Below are positions 1 through 5,052 of a stretch of DNA of 5,052 nucleotides, piece after piece; position 1 is the first letter of the stretch; every line of letters starts with the position of its first letter. The DNA lies in NCBI GenBank assembly GCA_013298595.1, contig JAAFIG010000064.1, positions 1-5,052 on the forward strand, given 5' to 3'. The notes beneath the pieces were generated by a model that saw nothing but the letters and a program-made list of their open reading frames with translations, was not told the origin of the DNA and ran no database searches. The position numbers were made by a program, and so were the translations under genes. Source of the DNA: Deinococcales bacterium (GTDB taxonomy: Bacteria > Deinococcota > Deinococci > Deinococcales > JAAFIG01).

Positions 1-147
1 GCCTGCTTCTCCTCGAGTCAGACAAAGCACATGGATTTTAATACCTTGGCTTGCCAGCAATGCCAGTGTACCACCACAACAAAAACTTTCATCATCTGGG
101 TGTGCAAAAACCGCGAGCAGCGTAGGCGTGGGTAGTGTAGGCAGCAT
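1..147 (-). CDS. PIG-L / LmbE-family zinc deacetylase, N-terminal part (truncated by window edge)
   Basis: The minus strand from the ATG at 147 reads open for 49 codons to the window edge. Residues 11-20 read [10 protein letters not shown], the AHPDDE signature of the PIG-L/LmbE family, followed by a GGT at 25-27 and the TRGEAG stretch at 44-49 that closes the second strand of the Rossmann-like fold. In characterised members such as MshB the His and second Asp of this motif (here H16, D19) bind zinc and the first Asp (D18) is the general base. The family removes acetyl groups from N-acetylglucosamine-type substrates, including bacillithiol and mycothiol precursors; the substrate here cannot be told from 49 residues. 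No Shine-Dalgarno sequence precedes the start; a TAGACT hexamer ends 8 nt before the ATG, so a leaderless mRNA is possible. It is divergent from the sugar-binding protein gene. The remaining roughly 180 residues lie outside the window. Confidence 0.88.
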
Positions 148-175
148 AGAGTTTCAGTCTAACGCAAGTTATAAT
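147..175 (+). promoter_or_regulatory. Candidate sigma-70-type promoter of the sugar-binding protein gene
   Basis: A perfect TATAAT lies at 170-175. Seventeen bases upstream, TAGAGT at 147-152 is a weak -35 (3 of 6 matches to TTGACA). Transcription would begin near 181-184, giving a leader of about 50 nt that contains the 188-203 palindrome and the ribosome binding site. The -35 overlaps the start codon of the divergent PIG-L gene, so the two transcription units share one short control region. The -10 is convincing; the -35 is not. Confidence 0.55.
156..161 (-). promoter_or_regulatory. Candidate -10 element of a leaderless promoter for the PIG-L gene
   Basis: On the minus strand this reads TAGACT, matching TANNNT, and ends 8 nt before the ATG at 147. 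That would place transcription start at or next to the start codon, and no Shine-Dalgarno sequence is present. The hexamer 17 nt further upstream (GTACCA, plus-strand 179-184) matches TTGACA at only three positions, so the -35 is weak. Confidence 0.35.
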
Positions 176-187
176 GACTGGTACGAG

Positions 188-203
188 CGATTCTCGAGAA
201 TCG
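188..203. promoter_or_regulatory. 16-bp perfect palindrome, candidate operator
   Basis: CGATTCTCGAGAATCG is identical to its own reverse complement. It sits just downstream of the predicted transcription start and 28 bp before the start codon, where a repressor would block transcription. An even-length 16-bp palindrome with a central CG is the form of LacI/GalR-family operators, which often control sugar importers. The core is also one copy of the CTCGAG word that is abundant throughout the window, so only the outer five base pairs on each side are independent evidence. A hairpin terminator is unlikely because no T-tract follows on either strand. Confidence 0.5.
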
Positions 204-220
204 AGAAAAGCAGGCTCGCT

Positions 221-225
221 GGAGG
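221..225 (+). promoter_or_regulatory. Ribosome binding site of the sugar-binding protein gene
   Basis: GGAGG is followed by a 6-nt spacer and the ATG at 232. It is the strongest Shine-Dalgarno sequence in the window and fixes this start, which also yields a complete signal peptide. Confidence 0.85.
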
Positions 226-231
226 AATATT

Positions 232-1503
232 ATGCAAAAACGATACGCCGTTGGACTCGTGGCACTCAGCGCAGCTTTGGCTATAGGTGTCAGTGCTCAG
301 AGTAGTAAAACACCTGTTTTGTACTGGCAATATCAGTTTGATAGCAAAGTCAATTTGGTTAACGAATTAATGGCTGAGTTTAACGCAGCCAACCCTGATA
401 TCGAAGTCAAACAAGAAACTTTTCCGTATGATAATTACATCGCTAAAGTCAAAAGTGCGGTTGGTGCTGGGCAAGGTCCAGATGTAGTAAATTTATTTTA
501 TGGTTGGATTCCCGATTGGGTGGCTGGTGGTTTCTTAGAACCCATTTCCAAAGCTGGTTTTGATGCTAAAACCCTCGAGGCAAATGTTGGTCCGCTGATA
601 CAGGCTGGTAAGGTCAATGGTAAGTATTGGGCAGTACCAACAGCCGTTCGTAGCCTAGCCATTTTTTATAACAAGGATTTATTCAAAGCTGCTGGTATTA
701 GCAAAATCCCGAAGACATGGGCAGAATTTGAAGCAGCTGGTAAAAAGATTCAGAAAGTCGAAAATGGCAAAACAGTCATTGCTGGTATTGCCGTGCAACC
801 AGAAGGACAAGATCATCATTTGTTCCGCGAAGTGCTAAGCCGTCAATGGGGCGGTAAACCTTACACTGGCGATTTTAAACAAATTTCCTATAACAGTGCC
901 GCTGGTCTCGAGGCTTTTAAGTGGTACACAGGTTTGATTGAACGAGGCGCAGCTACCCAAGGTAAGGAGATGCTACCTGGTTCAGGAAATGCTTACCGCG
1001 ATACCTTTATTGCTGGTAAAGCTGGCATGATTGTGGATGGTTCTTTTGCCATTGGTGGTATTCGCAATGGTGCTAAGTTCGATTGGGGTGTTTTTGAATT
1101 ACCAATCAAAGATGCAGGTGGTTTACGTGCCAATTTCGGTTCGTACTGGGTGCATGGTTTAACCCCAAATGCTAAAGGTGCCAAACTCGAGGCAAGTGCC
1201 AAATGGTTAAAATTCCTCACTTCTGAACCTGTGCAACGCCGTTGGTTACAAAAAGTTGGTGAAATTCCAGCCAATGCAGGGTTAGCTGCTGATCCTGCTT
1301 TACGTAAAGACCCTGTATTTGGTCCATTTGTGTCAAGTTTGCCTTTTGCTCGAGCAACTTTCTTTGTGGATGAAGCTGGGCAAAGAAAGGCTTTGTCAGA
1401 TGCAATGTACAGCACTTGGTTAACCAAAACCAGTCCTGTTGATGCTTTAAAAACAGCTGCCAGCGGCGAGCAAAAATTGCTGAATTTGTTCTTTAAGAAA
1501 TAA
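232..1503 (+). CDS. ABC sugar transporter, extracellular family 1 solute-binding protein
   Basis: This 423-residue secreted protein should capture a sugar or sugar-like solute and deliver it to the permease pair encoded at 2471-4230. Residues 1-23 form a Sec signal peptide: QKR, a hydrophobic core from about 6 to 20, and a VSA-Q cleavage site near 22/23. No lipobox cysteine is present, so it is probably soluble in the periplasm rather than lipid-anchored. Family 1 features follow in order: YWQY near 31-34, EFNAANPDIEV at 49-59, GQGPDVV at 80-86, GKYWAVP at 130-136, YNKDLF at 146-151, TWAEF at 162-166, and the C-lobe GKAGMIVDGSF at 262-272. Length is normal for CUT1 binding proteins of the MalE/UgpB type. 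Ligand cannot be predicted; a di- or oligosaccharide or glycerol phosphate ester is plausible. It is transcribed alone, ended by a terminator, and separated from the permeases by an antisense gene, so partnership with them is inferred from proximity. Confidence 0.93.
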   Translation: MQKRYAVGLVALSAALAIGVSAQSSKTPVLYWQYQFDSKVNLVNELMAEFNAANPDIEVKQETFPYDNYIAKVKSAVGAGQGPDVVNLFYGWIPDWVAGGFLEPISKAGFDAKTLEANVGPLIQAGKVNGKYWAVPTAVRSLAIFYNKDLFKAAGISKIPKTWAEFEAAGKKIQKVENGKTVIAGIAVQPEGQDHHLFREVLSRQWGGKPYTGDFKQISYNSAAGLEAFKWYTGLIERGAATQGKEMLPGSGNAYRDTFIAGKAGMIVDGSFAIGGIRNGAKFDWGVFELPIKDAGGLRANFGSYWVHGLTPNAKGAKLEASAKWLKFLTSEPVQRRWLQKVGEIPANAGLAADPALRKDPVFGPFVSSLPFARATFFVDEAGQRKALSDAMYSTWLTKTSPVDALKTAASGEQKLLNLFFKK

Positions 1504-1514
1504 GAAACCCTTCT

Positions 1515-1550
1515 AAAACGGCAGGCGTTAGGCTTGCCGTTTTTTGTTTT
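1515..1550 (+). terminator. Intrinsic terminator of the sugar-binding protein gene
   Basis: A 9-bp stem (1518-1526 with 1532-1540, one G-T pair) closes a 5-nt loop GTTAG and is followed by a T-rich run, 1540-1550. Flanking A residues at 1515-1517 can pair with the first Ts and lengthen the stem. It begins 11 bp after the TAA at 1501-1503. Read from the minus strand the stem is followed by only four Ts, so it might also weakly stop the convergent ATP-grasp transcript, whose stop codon lies in the loop. Confidence 0.85.
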
Positions 1551-2382
1551 GCTCGAGTTGCACAATATTTTGCCATAGCAAAAATGGTGAAATCGCAGCG
1601 TAACCACTTTCCCCAGCATCGTTGCATTCGATCACAATCCAGTTACCTTGTATGGTTTGGGCAACATCTATAACCACAAAGGGCACGTTTAAACGTAAAG
1701 CTGCTTCCCGAGCGATGGCAAGTGCAGCGGCTTCCTCGGCTTCCGACCAAGCATAGGTTGTAGACCAATACGGTGCTGCACCTACACATTGCCCGTACCA
1801 CCAAAAAGAGCGAAATTCAAATGAGGCAGGGATTTTATCAGTTAGCTCGGCAGGAACAGGACGCAAAGCAATAAATTCTCGAGCCACAAAAGCTTGCCAC
1901 TGCAAAATGGGATCGGTACGAAAAGCCTCAGCTGCAAGGTTGTACTCGGCTTCTGAACGAATAATCGAAAATGCTGCCCGATGCCGACTGGTTTGCCGTG
2001 CGCCTTTTAAAAACCAAGGTAATGGCAACATCGCCTCGAGATGGGCAAATTCAGGTGGTTCATTAAACCAAAAACTGCGAGGTGTTAAACCCTCGAGTAA
2101 ACCATACCAGCGTGGTAATTCGGAAATTAGAGCGTGTTGTTCTGGTGTATGAATTAAGAAAATATTTTCTTCGGCTAGTTGGCTGTATAACTGATTATAA
2201 TTGCTTGCTACCCCAAAACGGGCTATGGCTGTGATTGGTTCAGTTCGTTGCCACGGACGGCGACAAACAAAGAAATCTTGTAAGGGAAAATCGTAACTTG
2301 GCAAATCCACGTTGCCACTCAGCACCCAAACACTCTCCTCGAGCAGTATCAAATCTAAATTATTTGTTTCAACTCGAGCCAC
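1528..2382 (-). CDS. ATP-grasp domain protein, R2K-clade type (formerly DUF4343-like)
   Basis: The 284-residue protein has the pattern of a small stand-alone ATP-grasp enzyme. ATP-grasp enzymes activate a carboxylate as acyl-phosphate and join it to an amine or other nucleophile. Visible landmarks are FLKGARQTSRH at 124-134 with nucleotide-contacting K126, AREF at 167-170, FEFRSFWW at 188-195, FVVIDVAQT at 235-243, and IECNDAGESGY at 251-261. D239, E252 and N254 are placed as the usual magnesium ligands. The pattern of WFLKG-TS-H, ARE-F, VIDVA and IE-NDA-ESGY resembles the R2K family; substrate is unknown, and no membrane segment or signal peptide is seen. The start is GTG at 2382: the first in-frame start after an upstream stop, with no Shine-Dalgarno sequence but a TACAGT hexamer 6 nt before it. 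The gene lies antisense between the binding protein and its permeases. Its last five codons and TAA lie in the neighbour's terminator. Confidence 0.82.
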   Translation of the reverse strand: MARVETNNLDLILLEESVWVLSGNVDLPSYDFPLQDFFVCRRPWQRTEPITAIARFGVASNYNQLYSQLAEENIFLIHTPEQHALISELPRWYGLLEGLTPRSFWFNEPPEFAHLEAMLPLPWFLKGARQTSRHRAAFSIIRSEAEYNLAAEAFRTDPILQWQAFVAREFIALRPVPAELTDKIPASFEFRSFWWYGQCVGAAPYWSTTYAWSEAEEAAALAIAREAALRLNVPFVVIDVAQTIQGNWIVIECNDAGESGYAAISPFLLWQNIVQLEQNKKRQA

Positions 2383-2388
2383 ACATTC

Positions 2389-2417
2389 ACTGTAAAGACA
2401 TTGGATTACTTACACAA
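2389..2417 (-). promoter_or_regulatory. Candidate leaderless promoter of the ATP-grasp gene
   Basis: On the minus strand TTGTGT (2412-2417) and TACAGT (2389-2394) are separated by exactly 17 bp. The -10 ends 6 nt before the GTG at 2382, and no Shine-Dalgarno sequence lies between, so transcription would begin at or beside the start codon. Matches to consensus are 3 of 6 and 4 of 6, so this is suggestive only. Confidence 0.42.
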
Positions 2418-2437
2418 TACGCAGTTTGTCGTATGCT
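2409..2437 (+). promoter_or_regulatory. Candidate promoter of the permease-lyase operon
   Basis: CTTACA (2409-2414) and TATGCT (2432-2437) are 17 bp apart, each matching consensus at four positions or fewer. An alternative -10, TATTCT at 2444-2449, has no matching -35. The site overlaps the opposing promoter of the ATP-grasp gene, so the two could interfere. The 88-bp gap 2383-2470 holds nothing else recognisable apart from the permease ribosome binding site. Confidence 0.33.
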
Positions 2438-2460
2438 CTCCTCTATTCTAGTTTCTCTGC

Positions 2461-2464
2461 GAGG
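2461..2464 (+). promoter_or_regulatory. Ribosome binding site that sets the first permease start
   Basis: GAGG is followed by a 6-nt spacer and the ATG at 2471. The earlier in-frame ATG at 2426 has no such site and would add 15 residues atypical for the family, so 2471 is preferred. Confidence 0.7.
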
Positions 2465-2470
2465 TATTTT

Positions 2471-3376
2471 ATGACAAAACCTAAGAAACCCTTTAGCCTC
2501 GCGCAACGTCAAGCTATTTGGGCATATATATTTTTACTGGTACCATTAACGTTTTTTTTAGTAATACGGTTATACCCTGCTTTTGATGCGTTGCGTTTAT
2601 CGTTGCTGGATTTTCGTTCGCCACTAAAACCTGCACCATTTATTGGTTTAGATAATTTTAAGGAATTACTCGAGGATAGTGTTTTCCATAAAGCCTTGTG
2701 GAACACATTGCTTTATACCTTAATTGGTGTGCCTGCTCAGCTTGCTTTGGGTTTAGGTATTGCAATGCTGCTCTCGAGTATCAATAGGGCTAAAGGTTTT
2801 TTACGAGCCGTGTATTTTGCGCCTTACATCACTCCAATTGTGGCGAGTGCTTGGGTGTGGCAATGGTTACTCAATAAAAACTTTGGTCCTGTCAACGCCA
2901 TCATGATTGGGTTGGGTTTGCCAGCTCAACCTTTTTTACAATCACCTGACCAAGCCTTATTTGCCGCAACAGCTTTGGTAGTCTGGCAACAACTGGGTTT
3001 TCAAATTGTGATTTTTATTGCAGGACTCGAGGGTGTACCGCGCATCTATTACGAAGCAGCTGCGCTCGATGGTGCAAATCCTTGGCAACGCTTTCGTTTT
3101 ATTACTTTGCCATTGCTGAATGCCACGATTGTGTTTAGTATAGTCGTAGCAACCAATGGGTTTTTACAATTGTTCACGCAAATTGCGAATCTCAACCCCA
3201 CCGATAAAGGCGGACCGCTGGATAGTACTTTAACAGTGGCGTTGTACATCTATCGCCAAGGATTTGATAGCTCGAGATTTGGTTATGCTTCTGCAATCAC
3301 TGTGGTGTTATTTATCATTATTTTGTTGTTTACAATTTTGCAATTAACGGTTTTACGAAAGCGAGTGGATTACTAA
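2471..3376 (+). CDS. ABC sugar transporter permease, MalF/UgpA type
   Basis: A 301-residue inner-membrane subunit that forms half of the translocation channel of a CUT1-type importer. Six hydrophobic segments are visible at about 16-36, 80-102, 112-134, 162-184, 213-238 and 272-294, with a charged loop between the first two, as usual for UgpA-like proteins. The EAA loop that docks on the ATPase is at about 195-214 (YEAAALDGANPWQRF then ITLPLL), with the conserved Gly at 201. N-terminal KPKK and C-terminal LRKRVDY are consistent with cytoplasmic ends. Length is that of short UgpA-like permeases and lacks the extra N-terminal helices of enterobacterial MalF. It overlaps the next permease by one base. 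The sugar is not predictable from the sequence. Confidence 0.93.
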   Translation: MTKPKKPFSLAQRQAIWAYIFLLVPLTFFLVIRLYPAFDALRLSLLDFRSPLKPAPFIGLDNFKELLEDSVFHKALWNTLLYTLIGVPAQLALGLGIAMLLSSINRAKGFLRAVYFAPYITPIVASAWVWQWLLNKNFGPVNAIMIGLGLPAQPFLQSPDQALFAATALVVWQQLGFQIVIFIAGLEGVPRIYYEAAALDGANPWQRFRFITLPLLNATIVFSIVVATNGFLQLFTQIANLNPTDKGGPLDSTLTVALYIYRQGFDSSRFGYASAITVVLFIIILLFTILQLTVLRKRVDY

Positions 3377-4230
3377 TGACCAGTACCCAAATCGCACCTC
3401 GAGCTACTACAAAACGTCGTCCTCGGCAGGCGGCATGGTGGTTGTATGTTGTACTGATTCTGGGTGGTGTGATTACAGCTTTTCCATTTTTATGGATGTT
3501 TCTAACCAGCTTAAAAACCTATCAGGATGTATTTCTACCAAATATTATTCCGACTCAGCCAACGTTTGATAATTATTCTGAGGTACTTGGTAAAACTGGA
3601 TTTCTGCGTTGGTTCCTGAATTCAGTTGGGGTGGCAGTTGCCACAACCATTTCGGTACTGATTTTTGATTCAATGGTGGCGTACACACTGGCTAAGTTGC
3701 GTTTTCCTGGTAAAGAAATTATTTTTGTTTTAATTCTGTCTACCATCATGATTCCCACCGAAATGCTGGTCATTCCGTGGTATCTAGGGGCTTTAAAATT
3801 GGGCATTGCCGATAGCTACTTTGCCATTGCTTTACCGGGCATGATTACTGCTTTTGGCATTTTTTTGTTACGTGGTTTTTTTGAAAGCATTCCCGATGAA
3901 CTCTTTGATGCTGGGCGCTTAGATGGCTTATCCGAATTTGGTTTGTACTGGCGCATTGGTTTACCACTTGTTACACCTGCTTTAGCCGCCCTTGCTATTT
4001 TTAATTTCCTTGGTAATTACAACGCCTACCTCTGGCCCTTAATTATTATTCAGAGCCAAGAAATGCGAACCTTACCCGTTGGCATTGCCCTTTTTAGTAG
4101 CGAAGCTGGAACGCAATGGCATCTGATTATGACTGCCTCGAGCTTAGCTGTGATACCTGTTTTAATTGTTTTTGCCATTTTTCAAAAACAAATTATCGAA
4201 GGCGTTGTTTTAACAGGTACAAAGGGTTAG
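3376..4230 (+). CDS. ABC sugar transporter permease, MalG/UgpE type
   Basis: A 284-residue inner-membrane protein, the second channel subunit. Hydrophobic segments lie at about 21-44, 78-102, 112-136, 146-167, 198-222 and 250-271. The EAA loop is at about 174-197 (DELFDAGRLDG, then IGLPLV), with Gly184 in the conserved position. The C-terminus (KQIIEGVVLTGTKG) is the usual end of MalG/UgpE proteins. The ATG overlaps the upstream TAA as TAATG at 3374-3378, and only a weak GAGTGG lies upstream, so translation is probably coupled by ribosome reinitiation to keep the two subunits in equal amounts. The gene carries only two CTCGAG words, both near its ends, leaving a 733-bp stretch without one, the longest in the window. 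Confidence 0.93.
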   Translation: MTSTQIAPRATTKRRPRQAAWWLYVVLILGGVITAFPFLWMFLTSLKTYQDVFLPNIIPTQPTFDNYSEVLGKTGFLRWFLNSVGVAVATTISVLIFDSMVAYTLAKLRFPGKEIIFVLILSTIMIPTEMLVIPWYLGALKLGIADSYFAIALPGMITAFGIFLLRGFFESIPDELFDAGRLDGLSEFGLYWRIGLPLVTPALAALAIFNFLGNYNAYLWPLIIIQSQEMRTLPVGIALFSSEAGTQWHLIMTASSLAVIPVLIVFAIFQKQIIEGVVLTGTKG

Positions 4231-4243
4231 TCAGCCTTATATT

Positions 4244-5052
4244 ATGCCAAAAAACTGGAATCCACACTATATCAAACATGTACTCGAGCCGCATTTTGTG
4301 CAAGCAGAACAACATTTCTTGCAACCATTACTCGAGATCAGTCAGGCACACGCGGTGATGCTTTTTCGTTGTGGTTTACTCGAGAAAGGTTTTGCACAAC
4401 GTATTTTAGAAGCCCTTCGTGCCATTCAAGATGAATCTTTTACGTATTCCACTGCTTTTGAAGATTTATTCTTTACCATAGAAGCTCGAGTGATGGCAGC
4501 CGCTGGGGCAGAGGCGGCTGGGAATTTACAAATCGCTCGTAGTCGCAACGATGTGGATGCTGCCCTGATTCGTATGGTATTGCGTGACCAAGTGCTTGGC
4601 TTGCTGGGTTCGCTCGAGGAAACATGTGCGGTATTACTGGCTCGAGGTTTTGATGGTTTAACGTGGTTAATGCCTGGCTATACCCACCATCAACCCGCCC
4701 AACCCACCACCCTTGGGCATTACCTTTCGGGCATATTGAATGTCCTCGAACGTGATACTGGTCGTATCAAAGCTGCTTACTCGAGCATCAATTACTCACC
4801 GCTGGGCGCAGTTGCTATGACTGGTACTGCTTTTGCAATCAATCGTGATTGGATGCAACGATGGCTAGGCTTTGATGCAATACTCGAGAATGGTATAGAT
4901 GCTGTTAGTGCAGTGGATCACAGTCTTGAATTACTAAATGCAATCAGGATTTTATGCACCAATCTTTCGAGGTTGACCCATGATCTGATTTTCTGGGCTT
5001 CACAAGAAATCGGTTTTTTTCGGGTTGCCGATGAATTTGTGCAAATCAGTAG
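4244..5052 (+). CDS. Argininosuccinate lyase-superfamily protein, divergent (ArgH-like), truncated by window edge
   Basis: An open frame of 269 codons runs from the ATG at 4244 to the window end. Superfamily motifs appear in order: EDLFFTIE at 73-80, ARSRND at 98-103 (canonical GRSRND), PGYTHHQPAQPTTLGHYLSG at 144-163 with catalytic-type T147-H148, SPLGAVAMTGTAF at 185-197, and SQEIGFFRVADEF at 253-265. The sequence stops at the serine pair that opens the SSxMPxKxN catalytic loop. Argininosuccinate lyase splits argininosuccinate into arginine and fumarate. Departures: the usual N-terminal WGGRF motif is absent, and the His of the ED-H---E motif is Phe76. It starts 13 bp after the permease stop, without a clear Shine-Dalgarno sequence, so it is probably in the permease operon. 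It may be true ArgH or a paralogue acting on a related substrate; the symbol is therefore left blank. Confidence 0.85.
   Translation, partial: MPKNWNPHYIKHVLEPHFVQAEQHFLQPLLEISQAHAVMLFRCGLLEKGFAQRILEALRAIQDESFTYSTAFEDLFFTIEARVMAAAGAEAAGNLQIARSRNDVDAALIRMVLRDQVLGLLGSLEETCAVLLARGFDGLTWLMPGYTHHQPAQPTTLGHYLSGILNVLERDTGRIKAAYSSINYSPLGAVAMTGTAFAINRDWMQRWLGFDAILENGIDAVSAVDHSLELLNAIRILCTNLSRLTHDLIFWASQEIGFFRVADEFVQIS

Follow-up and report, generated by a model that had tools for sequence, protein, structure and literature searches.

The stretch of DNA considered here (5,052 nucleotides, contig JAAFIG010000064.1 of assembly GCA_013298595.1, from a Deinococcales bacterium; "the window") contains genes for a solute-binding protein, an R2K ATP-grasp protein and two ATP-binding cassette (ABC) permeases, which were confirmed by Pfam, as well as two segments whose labels, PIG-L and lyase, are those of a first-pass annotation. 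Throughout the window lies the palindrome CTCGAG, with 26 exact matches between positions 12 and 4888. A recount reproduced this number together with the distribution that the annotation had claimed, i.e., one copy in PIG-L, one in the control region, four in the binding-protein gene, six in the ATP-grasp gene, four and two in the permease genes, and eight in the lyase. The genes and sites are:

232-1503, solute-binding protein gene (Pfam), 4 CTCGAG sites
1528-2382, minus strand, ATP-grasp (R2K) gene (Pfam), 6 CTCGAG sites
2426-3376, ABC permease 1 gene (Pfam), 4 CTCGAG sites
3376-4230, ABC permease 2 gene (Pfam), 2 CTCGAG sites
12..17, CTCGAG, exact match
193..198, CTCGAG, exact match, upstream of the binding-protein gene
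574..579, CTCGAG in the solute-binding protein gene, in frame (Leu-Glu)
907..912, CTCGAG in the solute-binding protein gene, in frame (Leu-Glu)
1186..1191, CTCGAG in the solute-binding protein gene, in frame (Leu-Glu)
1349..1354, CTCGAG in the solute-binding protein gene, out of frame
1552..1557, CTCGAG in the ATP-grasp gene (minus)
1878..1883, CTCGAG in the ATP-grasp gene (minus)
2035..2040, CTCGAG in the ATP-grasp gene (minus)
2092..2097, CTCGAG in the ATP-grasp gene (minus)
2338..2343, CTCGAG in the ATP-grasp gene (minus)
2373..2378, CTCGAG in the ATP-grasp gene (minus)
2669..2674, CTCGAG in the permease 1 gene, in frame; no site in relative L080
2773..2778, CTCGAG in the permease 1 gene
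3026..3031, CTCGAG in the permease 1 gene, in frame; no site in relative L080
3271..3276, CTCGAG in the permease 1 gene
3398..3403, CTCGAG in the permease 2 gene; no site in relative L080
4137..4142, CTCGAG in the permease 2 gene
4283..4288, CTCGAG
4331..4336, CTCGAG
4379..4384, CTCGAG
4485..4490, CTCGAG
4613..4618, CTCGAG
4641..4646, CTCGAG
4780..4785, CTCGAG
4883..4888, CTCGAG

Base composition predicts 0.91 copies in the window, and 200 dinucleotide-preserving shuffles gave a mean of 0.41 and a maximum of 2, which amounts to an excess of 29 (base composition) to 63 fold (shuffling); the first-pass annotation was right to place the count far above chance, but its figure of about 20-fold was too low. 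The copies occur in genes of both orientations and in all three codon phases, and the sequences that flank them show no agreement outside the six bases, both as claimed. The relative L080, a metagenome-assembled genome (MAG) named "Deinococcales bacterium", is 85% identical to the window over one permease.

CTCGAG throughout the genome of the window

The genome to which the window belongs (G000) is a draft MAG of 4.58 Mb in 68 contigs, 94% complete and related to the Deinococcales; it stems from an uncultured relative of Thermus. It contains 27,159 copies of CTCGAG, or one per 169 bp, compared to 15 copies of the control word GAGCTC, which has the same letters in reverse. In a 400-kb sample, CTCGAG exceeds a first-order Markov model 59.7 fold and the runner-up among all 64 hexamer palindromes reaches 1.7 fold, so that CTCGAG is the only strongly enriched one; with a second-order model and sites masked (800 kb), the observed-to-expected ratio (O/E) is 71. 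The copies are spread evenly, with a variance/mean of 1.27 in 2-kb windows, and only 6 of 423 open reading frames (ORFs, at least 250 amino acids) combined a length above 1.2 kb with a density below 1.2 copies per kb. CTCGAG is a genome-wide iterated palindrome of G000, and this observation is very solid. A local artefact or an oddity of one genome was rejected, since the excess is genome-wide and is found in related genomes as well. The first-pass annotation had proposed a genome-wide word similar to the highly iterated palindrome HIP1 of cyanobacteria, and had named a count near Markov expectation, or enrichment confined to this locus, as outcomes that would speak against it. Neither was found, and the genome count, the comparison of 64 palindromes, the Markov expectation and the conservation in relatives all agree with the proposal.

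The density is equal in noncoding and coding DNA (5.8 and 5.7 per kb), despite the lower noncoding G+C, and tracks local composition within G000 at a constant ratio of ~30, which implies that the force on CTCGAG acts uniformly. A fixed target density, as the ~6 copies per kb in genomes of the window's family (f1) at a GC content of 45-59% might indicate, was dropped, because density follows local composition within G000 and within G001, another genome of this family. Two side observations concern the word content of G000. A 20-kb stretch (C12; L014:1-20000), partly alignable to G001, has a uniformly halved CTCGAG density (58 sites). Moreover, TTCGAA, GGGCCC, GAGCTC, CTTAAG, CGGCCG, CCGCGG and AGGCCT have 0 copies vs 55 to 127 expected in the 400-kb sample (L003-L022). 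This suggests that restriction weighs more heavily on the genome than the few restriction-modification genes seen would indicate.

A simple preference for certain codons and dipeptides (CTC-GAG, Leu-Glu) would fit the codon phases of the 3,930 coding sites, among which phase 0, the Leu-Glu frame, is the commonest (2,227, followed by 959 and 744). However, it has practically no chance of being the explanation: 1,703 coding sites lie in other frames, away from the sites CTC and GAG account for only 8.8% of Leu and 19% of Glu codons, respectively, and the equal noncoding density refutes it. The earlier statement that the copies are not accounted for by protein sequence thus holds with respect to cause, but it was incomplete, as the force bends the proteome itself, with Leu-Glu as the preferred frame. 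In G000, the O/E of the Leu-Glu dipeptide is 2.34 vs 0.97 for Glu-Leu, and CTCGAG spells two thirds of all Leu-Glu pairs.

Related genomes and the sparing of CTCGAG in Thermus

The comparison set comprised 111 genomes of the order (a phylum-level search gave the identical set); G007 is Thermus according to its RpoB, which scores 2,384 bits against that of Thermus, and the labels Meiothermus and Marinithermus are inferred from kinship and composition. CTCGAG density is graded among these genomes, with about 5,900-6,500 copies per Mb in f1 and in G012, 3,600 in G008, 2,300-3,400 in Meiothermus-like, Marinithermus-like and some Trueperaceae genomes, about 900 in Thermus and 300 in G004; part of the sister family of f1 also has ~6 copies per kb. 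First-order O/E values of sampled sequence are 15-60 for f1, 45 for G012, 15 for G099, 7.3 for G008, 6-12 for Meiothermus-like genomes, 5.8 for G006 and 2.4 for the Thermus-like G007, and there is no enrichment in G004 (0.6) and G107 (0.8). By the second-order model, Meiothermus-like genomes have an O/E of about 5-10, a plasmid of Allomeiothermus silvanus 3.9, and a plasmid of Deinococcus radiodurans 0.6. The pattern suggests that the enrichment may be ancestral in the order and was then lost, several times in small genomes. The proteome is graded as well: the O/E of Leu-Glu is 2.2-2.3 in f1, 1.8 in G008, 1.4-1.6 in Meiothermus-like genomes and G006, and 1.0 in G004 and Thermus, with Glu-Leu at 0.6-1.2 across the same genomes, and G004 has Leu-Glu at only 11 of 22 in-frame CTCGAG sites of RNA polymerase genes. 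On the A. silvanus plasmid, two insertion sequence (IS) transposase genes (L410:36589-40202) are without CTCGAG, as expected of recently arrived DNA. Viral contigs with three clustered sites proved uninformative, being mostly GC-rich chance matches and one minisatellite (L253).

Thermus itself is not strongly enriched in CTCGAG. The material consisted of 79 kb of G007 (L172, L209-L211), stretches of the T. thermophilus plasmid pTT27 (L413, L414) and two phages. In G007, 77 of 79 TCGA tetramers sit in CTCGAG, as do 45 of 49 in the pTT27 stretch of HB8 and 55 of 59 in that of HB27. In pooled Thermus sequence, in-frame CTCGAG occurs 140 times vs 257 expected from codon pairs, i.e., without excess over codon expectation, compared to 7 vs 425 for the other in-frame NTCGAN words tested, which is a 33-fold difference. 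The phages P23-45 and phiYS40 (20 kb sampled from each) avoid TCGA and have 0 copies of CTCGAG. TaqI-type TCGA restriction (PMC5587805) is the obvious candidate for the purging of TCGA, and a CTCGAG-specific modification would account for the sparing of CTCGAG. This sparing connects Thermus with the enriched genomes and offers the strongest hint as to the mechanism.

The same data bear on the possibility that CTCGAG enrichment is a by-product of restriction, such that TCGA-specific restriction spares CTCGAG and thereby channels mutations toward it. Precisely such an exemption exists in Thermus, and G000 has lost every copy of several palindromes to purging. However, other TCGA words are not purged in the enriched genomes, and Thermus, which shows the strongest purge, has no CTCGAG enrichment over codon expectation. 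As an exemption alone cannot give 70 fold, this explanation is largely refuted for the enriched genomes and we regard it as very improbable. Restriction of CTCGAG itself, as by the XhoI and PaeR7I systems, which recognize this word with the same all-or-none specificity, predicts avoidance, but CTCGAG is enriched 30-70 fold here. The earlier argument that restriction avoidance would lead to depletion was sound, and avoidance alone is excluded.

Exactness, turnover and spacing of sites

For zero, one and two mismatches to CTCGAG, the masked second-order O/E is 71, 1.33 and 0.95 in G000, and 68, 1.22 and 0.95 in G001. The force sees the exact 6-bp word only, in coding or noncoding DNA, and multiplies its frequency by a near-constant factor; if mutation and bias or selection are in balance, the equilibrium formula would give a scaled strength of ~ln 71 = 4.3 per site. 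In 41 kb of alignment between G000 and G001 (mean identity 73%), CTCGAG is identical in orthologues at 57% of sites vs 19% for other hexamers (~3 times as often), one-mismatch partners make up 11% vs 33%, and the one-mismatch share of non-identical pairs is 25% vs 41% (P = 2e-5). Single changes at the sites are mostly transitions, equal over the three positions (14, 12 and 10 per transition type). In rpoB and rpoC, 20 of 32 sites of G000 are common to G001, compared to 0 of 33 for the site-poor G004; some sites are common to G008 and Meiothermus-like genomes and many are private to one genome, a mix which implies that gain and loss of CTCGAG are both frequent.

A DNA uptake word could have accumulated in a similar manner: if competent cells favor the uptake or recombination of DNA with CTCGAG, copies would be driven up as with the DNA uptake sequence (DUS) of Neisseria and the uptake signal sequence (USS) of Haemophilus. 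Thermus and its relatives are naturally competent, which counts in favor of this explanation. The known uptake words also build up genome-wide inside genes and likewise drop sharply at one mismatch (PMC1939737). However, they are longer and non-palindromic, have about 1,500-2,000 copies per genome, a density that CTCGAG exceeds several times, and their one-mismatch forms are clearly enriched, namely 3 to 6 fold (PMC1939737); a graded over-representation of this kind is absent from CTCGAG, with 1.3 fold at one mismatch and nothing above expectation at two. Since an uptake word would also leave the sparing from the TCGA purge in Thermus unexplained, we consider it improbable.

The spacing of sites bears on another possibility, i.e., that an abundant nucleoid or repair protein binds CTCGAG and that this binding is under weak genome-wide selection, with no methylation involved, in which case sites within one footprint would be redundant and hence rare. 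In G000, pairs less than 20 bp apart indeed occur at 0.1-0.5 of expectation, and pairs 20-40 bp apart at 0.74-0.83. Other palindromes and inverted hexamer pairs are without this short-range gap, and general hairpin avoidance was rejected as its source in G000. The equal density in coding and noncoding DNA would fit a binding protein, too. However, the exclusion is weaker in G001 and absent in G008 and G006, and is treated here as a feature that only some of these genomes have and not as a general rule. Moreover, architectural proteins are usually mismatch-tolerant, yet one-mismatch forms of CTCGAG are hardly enriched, and no such candidate protein was identified. This explanation is rather unlikely.

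A putative CTCGAG-reading enzyme and the comparison with HIP1

The explanation that we tentatively prefer, with a confidence that falls somewhat short of even, is that Thermus relatives have, in CTCGAG, an iterated palindrome of the HIP type, which is kept up by an order-wide enzyme that modifies or binds the exact word and biases repair or survival toward it. Such an enzyme would be dimeric and, in a type II-like manner, all-or-none in its specificity. The most likely candidate would be a CTCGAG methyltransferase coupled to a strand-choosing repair or protection step, and DNA with the exact word would be retained more often than its one-mismatch alternatives. The bias could act through repair, as a drive, or through selection that favors a self-mark, and the same mark would let CTCGAG alone escape the TCGA purge in Thermus. 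CTCGAG methylation exists in Halorubrum (PMC8112702) and probably in Micrococcus (PMC6346199), and all cyanobacterial genomes that carry an iterated palindrome have a candidate methyltransferase (PMC4390886).

Profile searches with PF00145, PF01555, PF07669, PF02384 and PF02086, as well as for Vsr (PF03852), covered 20-21 genomes, and several results weigh against this proposal. No orthologous methyltransferase group from the five Pfam families spans all enriched genomes: C5 genes are absent from the enriched genomes G015 and G006, N4/N6 genes from G006 and G008, and D12 genes from G008, G006 and G099, and the only two candidates in G006 are one Eco57I-type and one HsdM-type protein. In addition, an excess of C-to-T over T-to-C in site decay was not found in the G000-G001 alignment, so that there is no sign of 5-methylcytosine hypermutation. 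However, methyltransferases of the same specificity are often unrelated in sequence, and the missing shared group therefore weakens the methyltransferase hypothesis without excluding it. All enriched genomes of good completeness encode DNA methyltransferases of some kind, whose specificity was not readable from sequence here. The set in G000 consists of one C5 enzyme (L023), one N4/N6 enzyme (L001), a partial N4/N6 match (L002), two Eco57I-type proteins and one weak D12 match, including the following:

L001:1399-3245 (G000), N4/N6 DNA methyltransferase, followed by a NotI-family nuclease gene (PF12183)
L023:1444-2574 (also L025; L024), C5 methyltransferase, solitary in G000 and G001

The C5 enzyme is 74% identical between G000 and G001, where it has the same gene neighborhood, and its relative in G012 adjoins an HNH nuclease gene; it was rejected as the cause of the enrichment, as G002, G003 and the majority of the other enriched genomes lack it. 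Among the causes suggested by the first-pass annotation, a solitary methyltransferase is thus still plausible, but no orthologous one is common to the enriched genomes. Canonical Vsr very short patch repair is absent from the window's family, with no Vsr gene in G000-G003 and one only in G008 and G010 among the genomes searched; a repair bias remains a component of the proposal favored here. The list of suggested causes is thus only partly narrowed. A more far-reaching version, possible but with the balance of probability against it, is an order-wide, previously undescribed self-mark: CTCGAG would be tagged or bound in Thermus relatives, the tag would protect DNA and bias repair, genomes would fill with the word and the proteome would bend, and in Thermus the same tag would spare CTCGAG from the TCGA restriction that empties genome and phages of TCGA.

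Like cyanobacterial HIP1 (GCGATCGC), CTCGAG is a short exact palindrome in extreme excess that occurs genome-wide and is patchily lost in some lineages; it is far above composition and Markov expectation, and it is found in coding and noncoding DNA and in several frames, as is characteristic of HIP-type words (Elhai, 2015). In contrast to HIP1, it has 6 instead of 8 bp, belongs to another phylum and is a different word (neither GCGATCGC nor a GATC-centered derivative), and its 5,900-6,500 copies per Mb in the window's family compare to 300-2,700 for HIP1 (PMC4390886). HIP1 is accompanied by two orphan methyltransferases, whereas none is tied to CTCGAG here. The alternate cyanobacterial HIPs (e.g., GGCGCC of Calothrix PCC 7103) are over-represented 6-bp palindromes as well, but they occur sporadically in single strains, while CTCGAG is common to an order. 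GGCGCC is by far the most over-represented hexamer among 97 cyanobacterial genomes, with a composition-based O/E just above the value of 15.5 given for Calothrix D253 (PMC4390886), compared to 20-31 for CTCGAG in the window's family. The first-pass annotation knew of no description of CTCGAG in this role, and none was found in the open-access literature, with most subscription journals outside its coverage. CTCGAG is the densest iterated DNA word that we found described, and an independent counterpart of HIP1.

To our knowledge, no mechanism has found general agreement for HIP1, which was described in the 1990s. CTCGAG provides an independent HIP-like case in another phylum, in which related genomes are graded from absence of enrichment via 5-10 fold to about 70 fold. 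As this series apparently includes culturable Thermus and Meiothermus, of which Thermus at least is transformable, the gain, loss and cause of the word are testable. Finally, a force at the DNA level that more than doubles the frequency of a dipeptide matters for analyses of codons, alignments and selection in these lineages.

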